A stretch of DNA of 20,817 nt from a virus, in the IMG/VR virus record IMGVR_UViG_3300048034_000041, positions 1 through 20,817 of that record. One strand, 5' to 3'. The notes beneath the pieces are model-generated. The model was not told the DNA's origin. It did no database searches and was given only the letters and a program-made list of their open reading frames with translations. Below, one piece after another: positions 2,736-14,316 of the stretch (position 1 is its first letter; each line of letters begins with the position of its first letter). Both the position numbers and the translations under genes were made by a program.

Positions 2736-4172
2736 ATGGCATATTCTATTCGTCCGAGAAACAAGGATGAAATATATCAAGTAACTACTTATAAAGCTGA
2801 TAAGATTGGTTTGATTGTAGAACTTTATGAATACCTTACTAGTAAATATCGTAATGTAGATCGCCCCCTGATCCTTAATGATGCTAGAGGTGGTAATGAA
2901 GTTAAAGTACATCCTGAGATAGCACAGGCATCTGGTCTTAGTGAAAAAGACTTGGAAAGAAATTCTCGCACTACACTAAAAATTAGATATGGAGTTGGTA
3001 GTGGTGGTGGTAGAGCAAGATATAATATGGGTAATGCTGCAGAAGGAATTTTAGCAGCAGCGATTGCTGCTCGTTTTGTCAATAAAGGAAAAAGAATTAC
3101 TGAAAGGGATATTTTAAATATTCTAGAAAAACAATATAGAACACTGTCTACAGATCATAAAGGAAGTTTTAATATATTCAAGTCTCCTAATTTTAAAACC
3201 ATTAGGGAGTCCGCCAAGATGATCCCCGATGATGATGTTGAACTGACTATTAAGTTGTCTCCCATCAATATGTCATTGGTTTTTTGCGAGCAACTTTTAG
3301 ATAATGATGAGAAGGCATCTGGTATTGCTGACCGCATGAGTATCATGACGCCATGCGTTCAGTATGCTAACTCCAGAGAAATTTCTCAGTTAGCAAATGT
3401 CATGTATCATAATAGAGTTTACAATAAAATTGAAGTCGAAGCTGATGGTGTTGGCGGTGAACTAACGACAAAGGTTGATATCTTTGTGAGGATTGATGGG
3501 AAAAAAGACATAACAATTCCTGGTAGATATGGTAATAGAAAATTAGCTATCACTCAGATCTCACTCAAGCGTGAGGTAGATCAATTCGCTCAGGTTGGCG
3601 GATGGGATATCCAAACTGTTAATAATTTCTGGGGTGTTATCTTAGATGAAAATCTAATTAATAACGTTCAACTAGAAGCAATCTACGCCAAACATAATAA
3701 CGGAGATTTTGAAACAACTAAGCATCATGCTGCTGCTGTGATGAATGATATCTATCTCTGGGCGCATAACAGAATACAGAATAAGTTTGGTAACTCTTCT
3801 TGGAGAAAACATTTTGTAGAAACACTTGATAACTTTGCTACAAAAAATGAGGAGAATGTAAAACTCGTAGAGATTATTGGTAGTGGTTATGAGAAGTTTG
3901 ATTTCTCTAAATTGCATGTGGCACTTAACGGTAGACCAGATTTGGATGTAGAAGCAAACCTGGAATTGGCATCAACATATCATAAATCAGTTCCTAGAGA
4001 TCCTACTGTGGGAGCACCACTACCAGCAGTTATCATTAGTGCTAAGAATAAAAATGATAATAAAGTTTATGATCTAATTAAATTCAGACATAAGATTGAG
4101 TGGGGTGGCACTGCTATTCGTAATTATGTGGAGAAGCAAAAAGGTTTATCTGAATACATTGCGGGATCATGA
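2736..4172 (+). CDS. Unrecognised 478-aa protein with possible PD-(D/E)xK-like motif
   Basis: A large soluble protein that I cannot assign to a named family. It has no signal peptide or membrane segment. The centre carries TTKVDIFVRIDGKK followed after about 25 residues by ITQISLKREVDQF. An aspartate (D248) on one strand and a QISLK strand (Q274 to K278) recall the D...(D/E/S)xK core of several restriction-type nucleases, but the middle acidic residue is not clear, so the nuclease idea is only an inference. A basic, glycine-rich loop GVGSGGGRAR (about residues 86-95) could bind nucleic acid. The start ATG directly follows the terminator T-run and its SD is the hairpin's right arm. Its TGA overlaps the next ATG (ATGA), so it is coupled to the KWDG protein gene. 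Confidence 0.85.
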   Translation: MAYSIRPRNKDEIYQVTTYKADKIGLIVELYEYLTSKYRNVDRPLILNDARGGNEVKVHPEIAQASGLSEKDLERNSRTTLKIRYGVGSGGGRARYNMGNAAEGILAAAIAARFVNKGKRITERDILNILEKQYRTLSTDHKGSFNIFKSPNFKTIRESAKMIPDDDVELTIKLSPINMSLVFCEQLLDNDEKASGIADRMSIMTPCVQYANSREISQLANVMYHNRVYNKIEVEADGVGGELTTKVDIFVRIDGKKDITIPGRYGNRKLAITQISLKREVDQFAQVGGWDIQTVNNFWGVILDENLINNVQLEAIYAKHNNGDFETTKHHAAAVMNDIYLWAHNRIQNKFGNSSWRKHFVETLDNFATKNEENVKLVEIIGSGYEKFDFSKLHVALNGRPDLDVEANLELASTYHKSVPRDPTVGAPLPAVIISAKNKNDNKVYDLIKFRHKIEWGGTAIRNYVEKQKGLSEYIAGS

Positions 4173-7145: not shown

Positions 7146-7168
7146 GGGGAGTATACTCCCCTTTTTTT
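7146..7168 (+). terminator. Strong intrinsic terminator
   Basis: GGGGAGTATACTCCCC (7146-7161) is a perfect palindrome, followed at once by seven T. It ends transcription 28 bases after the stop at 7118 and isolates the following Ig-like gene. Confidence 0.9.
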
Positions 7169-7175
7169 ATAAATA
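7168..7175 (+). promoter_or_regulatory. Late promoter, perfect T4 consensus TATAAATA
   Basis: TATAAATA begins on the last T of the preceding terminator. RNA would begin near 7181, giving a 30-base leader with AAAGG about nine bases before the ATG at 7211. The best late promoter of the window; it fits a highly expressed virion gene. Confidence 0.82.
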
Positions 7176-10320: not shown

Positions 10321-12623
10321 GTAACGGAATCAAAGTTGTTAAGCGCAGTGGTGAAATTGAACCACTGAACCTGGAAAAAATTCATTCGATGGTTGAATGT
10401 GCTTGTCATAATCTTGGCGGAGTTTCTGCAAGTCAAGTAGAAATGAACTCAGGAATTCAATTTTATGATGGCATCCCTACTGATAAAATTCAAGAGATCC
10501 TTGTTCGTTCTGCTAGTGATCTTATCTCTTTGGATAATCCAAACTATCAATTTGTAGCAGCACGTCTATTATTGTTTGGTCTTTATAAGCAAGTATTTGG
10601 TGATGATTGGAAGCATGGATTTCCTGATCTCAAAGAACATTTGAATGAAGGCATTGATCGTGGTATCTATGATGCTGAATTGGTGACTAAATATTCTGAT
10701 GATGAGTGGGAAAAAATTCATTCATATCTGGATCATGGTCGTGACTATTTGTTTACCTATGCTGGTCTTCGTCAGGTAGTTGACAAGTATCTCGTCCAAG
10801 ATAGGAGTTCACATGCAATGTATGAAACTCCTCAGTATGCATATTTGTTAGTTGCCGCTACAATTTTCGCAGAATATCCTAAGGAGACTCGTCTCGATTA
10901 TGTCAGAAGATACTACAACGCAATCAGCAAGCACAAAATCAACGTCCCCACACCTATCTTGGCAGGGGTGCGAACTCCACTTAGACAGTTTGCTAGCTGT
11001 GTTCTTATTGATAGCGATGACACCCTCAATAGCATCTTTTCTAGTGACATGGCGATTGGCCAGTATGTTGCTCAACGTGCAGGAATCGGTATCAACGCAG
11101 GCAGAATCCGTGGCATCAACGCTAAGATCCGAGGGGGAGAAGTTCAACATACAGGTGTTGTCCCTTTCCTTAAAAAGTTTGAAGCAACTGTCAGATGTTG
11201 CACTCAAAATGGCATCCGAGGTGGAAGCGCGACTGTACACTTCCCAATCTGGCACCAAGAGATAGAAGATATTATTGTTCTTAAGAACAATAAAGGAACA
11301 GAAGACAATCGAGTGAGGAAACTTGACTACTCCATCCAAATTTCAAAACTTTTCTATGAACGTTTCATTGCGAATGGAGAGATTAGCTTATTCTCACCGC
11401 ATGACGTACCAGGTCTCTATGATGCTTTTGGTAGTGATGACTTTGACACTTTATATCGGATGCATGAACTCAATGATGCTGTTCCAAGAAAGACTGTCGG
11501 GGCACAGGAACTAATTCTAAACATCCTGAAGGAGAGAGCAGAGACTGGTCGGTTGTATCTTATGAATATCGATCACTGCAACACTCACTCTTCATTCAAA
11601 GATCCTGTTTACATGAGTAATCTCTGTCAGGAGATCACTCTTCCAACTAAACCACTTACTCATATCGATGATCCTGATGGTGAGATTGCTCTTTGTATTC
11701 TTTCTGCTATCAATGTGGGCAAGATCTACAAACTTTCTGAGATGGAAGAACTATGTGATCTTTCTGTTCGTAGTCTAGAGGAACTAATCGACTATCAGAA
11801 ATACCCTGTAGTCGCTGCAGAACGCTCTACAAAGGCGAGAAGATCATTAGGGGTAGGATTTATTGGTTTAGCACATTACCTCGCTCGTAACGGCGAGCAC
11901 TACGATGATCAGGCGTCATGGGATTTAGTTCATGAATTGACTGAAGCATTCCAATACTTCCTCTTAAAATCTTCTAATGAAGTTGCTAAAGAAAAAGGAG
12001 TATGTGAAGCATTCCATAGGACCAAATATTCTGATGGAATTCTTCCAATTGATACATATAAGACCGATGTAGACAGTATCGTATCACCACACTATAATTA
12101 TGATTGGGAGAGTCTTCGCGCATCTATCAATGAGTTCGGATTGCGACACAGCACACTGTCCGCACAGATGCCATCAGAGAGCAGTTCCGTTGTGTCAAAC
12201 GCAACAAATGGAATTGAACCACCAAGAGCTTATCTGTCCATTAAAAAATCAAAGAAGGGGGTTCTTAAGCAAATTGTTCCACAGTACACTACACTGAAAA
12301 ATAACTACACACTCTTATGGGATATGGCATCTAATGCTGGATACATTAAGATTGTTGCTGTTATGCAAAAGTTCTTTGATCAAGGAATCAGTGGTAACTG
12401 GTCTTATAATCCAGAAAAGTTTGATAACAATGAGGTTCCAGTTTCAGTAATGGCACAAGACTTCCTTACTACTTACAAGTATGGTTGGAAGACTTCTTAT
12501 TATCAGAATACATACGACATCAAGACTGATGAATATCAGGAAGATGTGAAGCAGAGTTTAGAAAGTTTAATTTCAAGTATAGAAAACACCGAGGAGGAAG
12601 ACTGTGAGTCCTGTAAACTTTAG
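10317..12623 (+). CDS. nrdA: Ribonucleotide reductase class Ia, alpha subunit
   Basis: A 768-residue protein, similar to T4 NrdA (754), which reduces ribonucleoside diphosphates to deoxy forms with NrdB. Residues 1-90 are an ATP-cone-like regulatory domain (IKVVKRSGEIEPLNLEKI). Catalytic residues are visible: C228 in ASCVLIDSDD and C460 as the substrate-reducing pair, C437 with E439 in NLCQEITLP as the thiyl radical site and its acid, and the C-terminal C763-E-S-C766-K-L thioredoxin/glutaredoxin exchange pair. PSESSSVVSNATNGIEPPRA is the usual substrate loop. All key residues are present, so it should be active. It overlaps the primase stop by four bases and nrdB by 20. Confidence 0.96.
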   Translation: MSNGIKVVKRSGEIEPLNLEKIHSMVECACHNLGGVSASQVEMNSGIQFYDGIPTDKIQEILVRSASDLISLDNPNYQFVAARLLLFGLYKQVFGDDWKHGFPDLKEHLNEGIDRGIYDAELVTKYSDDEWEKIHSYLDHGRDYLFTYAGLRQVVDKYLVQDRSSHAMYETPQYAYLLVAATIFAEYPKETRLDYVRRYYNAISKHKINVPTPILAGVRTPLRQFASCVLIDSDDTLNSIFSSDMAIGQYVAQRAGIGINAGRIRGINAKIRGGEVQHTGVVPFLKKFEATVRCCTQNGIRGGSATVHFPIWHQEIEDIIVLKNNKGTEDNRVRKLDYSIQISKLFYERFIANGEISLFSPHDVPGLYDAFGSDDFDTLYRMHELNDAVPRKTVGAQELILNILKERAETGRLYLMNIDHCNTHSSFKDPVYMSNLCQEITLPTKPLTHIDDPDGEIALCILSAINVGKIYKLSEMEELCDLSVRSLEELIDYQKYPVVAAERSTKARRSLGVGFIGLAHYLARNGEHYDDQASWDLVHELTEAFQYFLLKSSNEVAKEKGVCEAFHRTKYSDGILPIDTYKTDVDSIVSPHYNYDWESLRASINEFGLRHSTLSAQMPSESSSVVSNATNGIEPPRAYLSIKKSKKGVLKQIVPQYTTLKNNYTLLWDMASNAGYIKIVAVMQKFFDQGISGNWSYNPEKFDNNEVPVSVMAQDFLTTYKYGWKTSYYQNTYDIKTDEYQEDVKQSLESLISSIENTEEEDCESCKL

Positions 12624-13791
12624 AGTAGGATCTAGCGACACTAATACCACAGTTCGTGGTATGACCGTATTCAATAAAGATAAAGTTGATACTAAGAAGC
12701 AACCGATGTTCTTCGGTGCCCCTCTTGGTATTCAGCGTTATGATACTTATAAGTATCCAGTGTTTGATAAACTTACTCAAACACAACTTGGATATTTCTG
12801 GAGACCTGAAGAGGTTTCTCTACAAAAAGATCGTGGTGATTATCAATCATTGCGTCCAGAACAAAAGCATATCTTTACTTCTAATCTGAAGTATCAGATT
12901 ATGCTTGACTCAGTTCAAGGTCGTGCTCCTGGTATGGCATTCATTCCTTACTGCTCTCTGCCTGAACTGGAAGCATGTATGGAAGTCTGGGGTTTCATGG
13001 AGATGATCCACAGTCGTTCATATACTCACATCATCAAAAATGTCTATGCTGATCCAGCAGAAGTGCTTGACACGATCCTGGATGACGCTATGATATTATC
13101 ACGCGCCGAAACAGTTACAGGTGCGTATGATGATTTCATCAACCATGCTCAAGAATATGGTAGTAGCAATCAGTGGGAGCATAACCTTGAGGGAGTTCCC
13201 GCTGCTGAATACGATCTATATGAACTGAAGCGTAAACTTTATCGTGCTGTAGTCAATGTCAACATCCTCGAAGGTATCAGGTTCTATGTTTCGTTCGCGT
13301 GTTCATTCGCTTTTGGAGAGCTTAAACTCATGGAGGGATCCGCTAAAATTATCTCTCTCATCGCAAGAGACGAAAACCAACATCTTGTTCTTACACAAAA
13401 CATTATCAATAAGTGGAGTCAGGGAGACGACCCAGACATGGTTAGAATTGCTAAAGAAGAAGAGCAGTGGGTCTATCAGGCATTTGAGGCAGCGGTAACT
13501 GAGGAACGTGTCTGGGCAGATTATCTGTTCAAAGAAGGTTCTATGATCGGTCTCAATGCTAAACTTCTTACTCAGTATGTTGAGTGGGTTGCCAACCGTC
13601 GCATGAAAGCGATTGGTCTGAAACCAATTTATGATGTTGCTGCTAAGAATAATCCATTACCATGGACTGAGCATTGGATCTCTTCTAAAGGTCTTCAAGT
13701 TGCACCTCAAGAAACTGAGAATGAAAGTTACATTGTTGGAGGAATTAAGCAGGATGTTAAGAAAGATACTTTCGCTAATTTTCAACTGTGA
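12604..13791 (+). CDS. nrdB: Ribonucleotide reductase class Ia, beta subunit
   Basis: A 395-residue protein (T4 NrdB 388) that houses the di-iron centre and tyrosyl radical for NrdA. Iron ligands and the radical Tyr can be placed: D102 in MLDSVQGR, E133 and H136 plus Y140 in MEMIHSRSY, E223 in LEGIRFYVSF, and E257 and H260 in ARDENQH. The start is GTG at 12604: GAGGAGGA (12591-12598) lies five bases before it and falls within the last codons of nrdA, so the two subunits overlap by 20 bases and are probably made in a fixed ratio. The alternative ATG at 12661 would remove residues without a better ribosome binding site. Confidence 0.95.
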   Translation: MSPVNFRVGSSDTNTTVRGMTVFNKDKVDTKKQPMFFGAPLGIQRYDTYKYPVFDKLTQTQLGYFWRPEEVSLQKDRGDYQSLRPEQKHIFTSNLKYQIMLDSVQGRAPGMAFIPYCSLPELEACMEVWGFMEMIHSRSYTHIIKNVYADPAEVLDTILDDAMILSRAETVTGAYDDFINHAQEYGSSNQWEHNLEGVPAAEYDLYELKRKLYRAVVNVNILEGIRFYVSFACSFAFGELKLMEGSAKIISLIARDENQHLVLTQNIINKWSQGDDPDMVRIAKEEEQWVYQAFEAAVTEERVWADYLFKEGSMIGLNAKLLTQYVEWVANRRMKAIGLKPIYDVAAKNNPLPWTEHWISSKGLQVAPQETENESYIVGGIKQDVKKDTFANFQL

Positions 13792-13946
13792 AAACACCAC
13801 CACCGTGGAAACTGTTAGCATTAGCAGACCCAGAGTTGTCGGAGAAACACTGGCAACTCCTGAAACTAGGACCGAGCAGTCTGGCAGAAGCTTTTATTCT
13901 CCAAGCGATCAAATGGAAATACCAGACCCGTGGGACGACATCTTAA
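13788..13946 (+). CDS. Small 52-aa protein overlapping the nrdB stop
   Basis: A frame of 52 residues beginning with GTG that shares four bases with the nrdB stop (GTGA). It reads KTPPPWKLLALADPE, then a helical stretch (LSEKHWQLLKLG, SSLAEAFILQAIKW) and ends shortly before the late promoter at 13952. Its codons resemble those of the neighbours, it fills the gap between nrdB and the endonuclease, and the GTGA overlap matches the coupling used throughout the window. No signal peptide or membrane segment. I do not recognise it. The other frame here continues a shadow of nrdB and is less protein-like. It could be a small regulator or partner of the reductase, but that is only a guess from position. 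Confidence 0.6.
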   Translation: MKTPPPWKLLALADPELSEKHWQLLKLGPSSLAEAFILQAIKWKYQTRGTTS

Positions 13947-13951
13947 TGTAA

Positions 13952-13959
13952 TCTAAATA
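13952..13959 (+). promoter_or_regulatory. Candidate late promoter TCTAAATA
   Basis: A TCTAAATA octamer just after the 52-aa gene. Its last four bases are the outer left arm of the terminator that follows. RNA would begin near 13965, in the loop of that hairpin. Confidence 0.55.
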
Positions 13960-13983
13960 CCTCCAGTGATGGGGGTATTTTTT
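13956..13983 (+). terminator. Intrinsic terminator after the nrd block, also covers the next RBS
   Basis: AATACCTCC, loop AGTGAT, GGGGGTATT with one G-U pair, then a T-run to 13983. GGGGG (13971-13975) sits eight bases before the ATG at 13984 and serves as its Shine-Dalgarno candidate, the same design as at 2714-2734. Confidence 0.8.
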
Positions 13984-14316
13984 ATGAAACCACAATCTGC
14001 TAAGGCAAAGGGTAGAAAGTTACAACAGTGGGTTAGAGATAAATTGATTGAACATCTTAGCGTACATCCTGAGGACATTGAATCTAGATCAATGGGTGCA
14101 GGCGGCGAAGATCTCATTATGGCAAGAGCAGCTAGACAAAAGTTCCCTCATAGTATAGAATGTAAAAATGTAGAGAAACTCAATATCTGGGATGCCTACG
14201 AGCAATCTGCTGCAAATTGTGGAGATTACGAACCAATTGTTGTTATCAAAAAAAATGGTAAGAAACCTTTGGTAGTAATCGACGCTGAATACTTTATTAA
14301 AAACTTTCAAAACTAA
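13984..14316 (+). CDS. Small PD-(D/E)xK endonuclease (resolvase-like)
   Basis: A 110-residue protein. Residues 8-25 are a basic helix (KGRKLQQWVRDKLIEHL). It is followed by SMGAGGEDLIMA with E42-D43, and HSIECKNVEK with E59-x-K61, the D...ExK core of PD-(D/E)xK nucleases such as Holliday-junction resolvases and VRR-type enzymes. ECKN followed by a Trp-bearing helix (NIWDAYEQSAANC) is typical of the small phage versions. It may trim branched DNA or replication intermediates. I chose the ATG at 13984, because the upstream in-frame ATGs at 13966 and 13969 lie in the terminator hairpin. No signal peptide. Confidence 0.82.
   Translation: MKPQSAKAKGRKLQQWVRDKLIEHLSVHPEDIESRSMGAGGEDLIMARAARQKFPHSIECKNVEKLNIWDAYEQSAANCGDYEPIVVIKKNGKKPLVVIDAEYFIKNFQN

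Follow-up and report, generated by a model that had tools for sequence, protein, structure and literature searches.

In the 20,817-nucleotide stretch of viral DNA analyzed here (the window), an element of about 30 bp directly before a nuclease gene joins a late-promoter-like box, a GC-rich hairpin, a Shine-Dalgarno (SD) sequence, and a T-run within a single site. We consider it probable that this site is a ribosome-binding site of the T4 type, one that would be unmasked when late transcription starts, merged with an intrinsic terminator. The sequence and fold of the site, the covariation of its stem, its conservation, and the nonrandom association of its motifs are direct observations; from them we infer promoter use, the exact start, termination, the translation block, and the activity of the encoded enzyme. 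Judged from the sequence comparisons below, the combination of terminator, promoter, and ribosome-binding site is selected.

Layout and fold of the site

The virus is a T4-like cyanophage whose + strand carries UvsX-like, DnaB-like helicase, MazG-like, nrdA, and nrdB genes, the last two of them upstream of the nuclease gene. The features of the site and its surroundings are as follows.

12604 to 13791, + strand: nrdB, the operon gene upstream, whose RNA would enter the hairpin
13788 to 13946, + strand: small upstream ORF, phrog_869, function not assigned (ORF list, profile match)
13952 to 13959, + strand: late-promoter-like box TCTAAATA, at predicted positions -13 to -6 (sequence)
13956 to 13964, + strand: left hairpin arm AATACCTCC (fold; covaries with the right arm)
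13965, + strand: predicted late transcription start, an A just past the left arm (geometry, purine in orthologs, C depletion)
13971 to 13979, + strand: right hairpin arm GGGGGTATT (sequence, fold, covariation)
13971 to 13975, + strand: Shine-Dalgarno GGGGG inside the right arm (sequence)
13978 to 13983, + strand: T-run of the predicted terminator, reaching the start codon (sequence; kept in orthologs)
13984 to 14316, + strand: nuclease gene, phrog_244, 110 aa (profile match; PD-(D/E)XK-like motif)

The box TCTAAATA and the left arm AATACCTCC share four bases, and eight bases (13976 to 13983) separate GGGGG from the ATG at 13984; these coordinates and this spacing, as given in the original prediction, were correct on direct reading. 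Because the phrog_869 ORF ends six bases before the box, the intergenic gap of 37 bp between that ORF and the ATG is almost filled by the composite TCTAAATACCTCCAGTGATGGGGGTATTTTTT. The RNA from 13940 to 13990 folds with an energy of -14.5 kcal/mol, compared with -7.2 ± 2.0 kcal/mol for shuffled versions (z = -3.61; 0 of 200 as good); sequence and fold together bear out the proposed overlap of a terminator-like hairpin, a late promoter, and a ribosome-binding site. At this site and at a second one near 2714, a GC-rich stem is followed directly by a T-run, which is the sequence pattern of an intrinsic terminator. A simple terminator scan of the window listed the site at 2714 but not the one at 13952, where an A-U extension of the stem apparently consumes part of the T-run.

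Late-promoter-like box and predicted start

The late box of T4 spans -13 to -6 (PMC2988020), and when this geometry is applied to the window boxes the predicted +1 falls at A13965 and G2720, each directly after a five-base GC arm. A start at A13965 lies past the left arm, so that the late RNA would lack it; by sequence geometry, the box is placed so that the predicted RNA would be without the 5' arm. Of 35 distinct ortholog forms, 34 have a purine at the predicted +1. In cyanophages, +1 downstream of (A/C)TAAATA boxes that precede ORFs is depleted of C and enriched in purines, and C is also depleted at +1 in T4 promoters; the T4 -13 to -6 rule seems from these base frequencies to hold in cyanophages. 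Against promoter use stands the -5 to -1 spacer, CCTCC, whose GC content is rarely seen at late promoters: four or five G/C occur in just 9 of 322; the preponderance of AT in late-promoter spacers has been noted (PMC2988020). The box itself differs by one base from the cyanomyovirus late box NATAAATA, having CTAAATA for ATAAATA. Upstream of cyanophage ORFs, TAAATA preceded by A and TAAATA preceded by C are both enriched, which makes CTAAATA look like a genuine variant.

RNA is often stabilized by hairpins at its ends, and on such general grounds this hairpin could shield the nuclease mRNA at its 5' end, or the nrdB mRNA at its 3' end, against RNases while having no regulatory role. That explanation accounts neither for the TAAATA box and its constant distance from the loop nor for a purine at +1 and an SD within the right arm, and we rejected it as very improbable.

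Conservation among relatives of the nuclease gene

The composite is present at 57 of 182 distinct loci of the phrog_244 gene, in 36 distinct forms. At 49 of these 57 loci nrdB lies no more than 800 bp upstream, and the other eight have another context or none that is visible. About two thirds of the sampled phrog_244 loci, including those of Syn1 and DSL-LC03, are without the element, and at such loci the gene mostly abuts or overlaps the preceding gene.

Across the forms, 99.1% of the cells tabulated for the stem are paired, and three pairs carry double (compensatory) changes. None of 500 shuffles reaches the covariation score, and all slid versions fall well below it. The right arms of the orthologs read GGAGG, GGGGG, AGGGG, GAAGG, and similar, the SD being preserved in the conserved forms, and the A-rich flank of the stem is always TAAATA and never a plain A-run. 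The mean unpaired fraction of the SD over 35 forms is 0.04 in the read-through RNA versus 0.45 in the late RNA, in which some forms free the SD only partly.

The T-run bears on whether termination is part of the design. The hairpin might be a purely translational lock like those of T4, without real termination, in which case the T-run would do no more than space the SD from the start codon with AT-rich sequence. The T4 gene 49, e, segB, and I-TevI leaders indeed act as locks without a long T-run, and the site at 13952 is not called a terminator by the simple scan. However, every one of the 35 ortholog forms has at least five T in the eight bases that follow the right arm, compared with 15 of 155 strong cyanophage SDs (the most T-rich of which are mostly composites), and many forms (GGAGGTTTTTTATT) keep a T-run that does not extend the stem. 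We therefore regard a lock without termination as unlikely and favor the merged lock and terminator.

At two loci (L529, 4255 to 4900, and L535, 12541 to 13186), an HNH-like ORF stands between the composite leader with the first 14 nuclease codons and a complete nuclease gene that has an SD of its own. The layout suggests that a homing-endonuclease-like gene was inserted behind the leader and took it over.

A second composite in the window

The second site of the window consists of the following features.

2707 to 2738, + strand: second composite, with AATAAATA at 2707 to 2714, then hairpin, T-run, and ATG (sequence, fold, orthologs)
2714 to 2719 and 2724 to 2729, + strand: its hairpin arms, ACCCCC and GGGGGT
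2720, + strand: its predicted start
2729 to 2734, + strand: its T-run
2736, + strand: its ATG
2736 to 4172, + strand: the gene behind it, phrog_3560, function not assigned

The order of the elements is the same as at 13952, and the predicted start again lies just past the left arm. The arms and loop differ between the two sites, and orthologs keep each site together with the gene that it precedes, so that they are not recent duplicates but independent, as had been proposed.

The second composite is preserved in close orthologs of the phrog_3560 gene. Relatives at 51% identity (L221 to L223) have a different hairpin, in which the promoter is in the loop region and the SD is in the right arm, and a weak phrog_3560 homolog in S-RSM4 (L173) likewise combines a loop-region promoter with an SD in the right arm. 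Among phrog_3560 relatives, then, the logic is kept while the sequence differs, as far as can be read from these leaders. A Syn1 gene (L140) has the same loop design, but its best BLAST E value to phrog_3560 is 0.046 and a relation is not established. In all of these loop-design leaders (upstream of position 1501 in L221 to L223, and in S-RSM4 and Syn1), the hairpin is longer and late transcription would start very close to the SD.

Association with late boxes and start codons

Strict composites were found 7 times in 11 cyanophage genomes or contigs and not at all in each of 12 Markov shuffles, which is more than chance would give. Where present, they mostly number one or two strict copies per genome. 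A narrow pattern gave only five places in 4 of 17 records, its low yield being due to missed variants. A broad count of any pairing across the predicted start, in which weak AU stems swamp the signal, showed no enrichment for TAAATA; a separation emerges with strong stems, most of all with stems that bear an SD.

In the loci retrieved through the nuclease gene, a terminator-like hairpin has TAAATA beside it in 26 of 40 cases when it precedes an ATG and in 2 of 90 cases otherwise, and the composite stems are C-left/G-right, opposite to most other terminators. Because of how these loci were chosen, both counts lean on one family and are not independent. The reversed polarity is what would be expected if the right arm had to be an SD. 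A more independent test was provided by a scan of 2.9 million viral contigs for the pattern TAAATACCTCC...GGAGGTNTTTT, which returned 98 stretches, 82 of them with an ATG ORF within 14 nt; the one anagram used as the control, TATAAA, gave 8 stretches in the same scan, 0 of them before an ATG.

These counts speak against a plain intrinsic terminator of the nrdB operon, in which the AT-rich flank of the stem would mimic a late promoter and the start codon would be close by chance. Such a terminator would agree with the GC-rich stem and T-run and with the tight packing of the genes. It would not explain why TAAATA is concentrated at hairpins before an ATG, why the stem polarity is reversed in a way that makes the right arm an SD, why the anagram falls so far short of the true motif, or why the A-rich flank is always TAAATA. 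We rejected it as improbable on the basis of the ATG association, the polarity, and the anagram control.

Of the 98 stretches in the contig scan, 56 precede a phrog_244 gene. Others stand before genes for a RuvC-like resolvase (L467), an endonuclease-VII/HNH protein (L550), GIY-YIG nucleases (L476 and L510), and a homing endonuclease (L555), and also before those for a terminase large subunit (L543), gp25 (L546), and a tail assembly chaperone (L551). The element had been suggested to be a general device of this phage group. This stands insofar as many different genes of T4-like phages have it in front of them; it does not stand in the sense of a widespread device, since there are few copies per genome, tied to particular genes, and most of the sampled nuclease loci are without one. 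There is about an even chance that unrelated genes in T4-like phages have repeatedly adopted one element of about 30 bp that serves as terminator, lock, and late promoter; the main adopters would be three nonhomologous families of branched-DNA nucleases (Hjc-like, RuvC-like, and endonuclease VII-like), which the same cis device would then time whichever enzyme is used.

Two kinds of related leader were also seen. A head-tail adaptor gene (phrog_211, as assigned by the G001 protein) has a similar leader of TAAATA, hairpin, and T-run in G001 (L121) and G003 (L198:5719). In addition, TAAATA is followed by, and overlaps, a G-left/C-right terminator-like hairpin directly before the ATG of similar ORFs of 130 to 137 aa, with a right arm that lacks an SD (S-PM2 L101:17800, L036:3073, L042:12209, G002 L193:14886, and G003 L201:1435).

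The nuclease

The product of the gene at 13984 matches the phrog_244 profile, which is labeled as a RusA-like Holliday junction resolvase, with an E value of 3.5e-21, and it matches Pfam PDDEXK_15 only below the cutoff. The phrog_244 profile also matches in the Haloferax and Sulfolobus control genomes, and matches in these two archaea suggest that the product is a resolvase of the Hjc type. It is probably, on this profile evidence, a Holliday-junction resolvase, acting to debranch DNA ahead of packaging. A PDB sequence search and NCBIfam gave no match for the nuclease, and its AlphaFold2 model was poor (pLDDT of 51).

The Endonuclease_7 domain (PF02945) was not found in the product by the Pfam scan, nor was it matched in the close relative G001. 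Among Straboviridae, T4, KVP40, Aeh1, and RB49 have Endonuclease_7, and phrog_244 was not found in them. In 7 of 13 other records phrog_244 is present, and two of those seven also match Endonuclease_7; for S-PM2, this match may reflect a homing endonuclease already described, F-CphI (PMC6083498). Neither family was matched at an E value of 0.001 in Syn9, P-SSM2, P-SSM4, S-RSM4, S-SM2, or P-HM1.

Proposed mechanism

RNA coming in from the nrdA-nrdB operon would contain the whole hairpin, and much of it would end at the T-run, since a short GC-rich stem that ends in a T-run should also terminate incoming RNA. In RNA that reads through, the SD would be locked in the right arm, so that little nuclease would be made. 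Late RNA polymerase (of the gp55/gp33/clamp type) would start at A13965, and the resulting RNA would form neither the terminator nor the lock and would thus be elongated and translated. With the early RNA off and the late RNA open, the nuclease would appear only late. The start past the left arm is the key functional point, which was absent from the original prediction and which we take by analogy from the established logic of T4.

The signature of TAAATA, five-base arm, short loop, SD arm, T-run, and ATG may mark genes that are silent until late in infection. In S-PM2, which infects the cultured host Synechococcus WH7803, the resolvase gene has this element too (NC_006820, 115171 to 115196), and the predicted starts could be tested there.

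Comparison with known systems

In the literature examined, we found no paper describing the element in cyanophages, and the published S-PM2 expression study does not address the site. The cyanomyovirus late promoter NATAAATA is among the features described for S-PM2 and Syn9 (PMC2984593), and the site at 13952 agrees with it in box, strand, and distance to the ORF; it differs in having CTAAATA and in lying within a hairpin. A tandem arrangement is seen at 7146 to 7174 of the window, where a terminator, GGGGAGTATACTCCCC, and its T-run are followed by the late promoter TATAAATA. This order is usual in relatives, with TAAATA no more than 24 nt after the stem in 33 of 105 other terminators. Both the tandem and the site at 13952 put a terminator and a late box between genes, but the tandem involves no SD, its stem is G-left/C-right, and its box comes only after the T-run.

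The closest known counterparts are in T4 and have an experimental basis. There, the long early RNA of e, soc, 49, and I-TevI hides the ribosome site in a hairpin, and a late promoter within the 5' arm yields an RNA without that arm; the arrangement at segB is similar (PMC3014915, PMC2988022). When our composite scan was run on T4, gene 49, segB, I-TevI, and e were the strongest TAAATA matches. The T4 leader hairpins and the one at 13952 both have a late box in the 5' arm and an SD or start region in the 3' arm, and fold, accessibility, and covariation indicate that the hairpin of the long RNA pairs the SD as in the T4 e, soc, 49, and I-TevI type. The spacing at T4 49, segB, and I-TevI is also similar (TAAATA, five pyrimidine-rich bases, and then mostly A). 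However, the T4 stems are longer or richer in AU and lack a long T-run, whereas the stem at 13952 is short and GC-rich and runs into a T-run, so that, unlike the T4 leaders, it also resembles an intrinsic terminator. The T4 lock on early RNA would thus have been carried to marine cyanomyoviruses in a more compact form, with termination also predicted.

The parallel may extend to the gene that is controlled. T4 gene 49 (endonuclease VII) encodes a Holliday-junction resolvase, as the gene at 13984 probably does, although the nuclease at 13984 matches phrog_244 and, unlike the product of gene 49, not Endonuclease_7. To the extent that the family label of phrog_244 is right, gene 49 and the phrog_244 gene probably encode unrelated nucleases of like function that are placed under the same kind of switch, which suggests that T4-like phages with unrelated branched-DNA nucleases keep them on one schedule.
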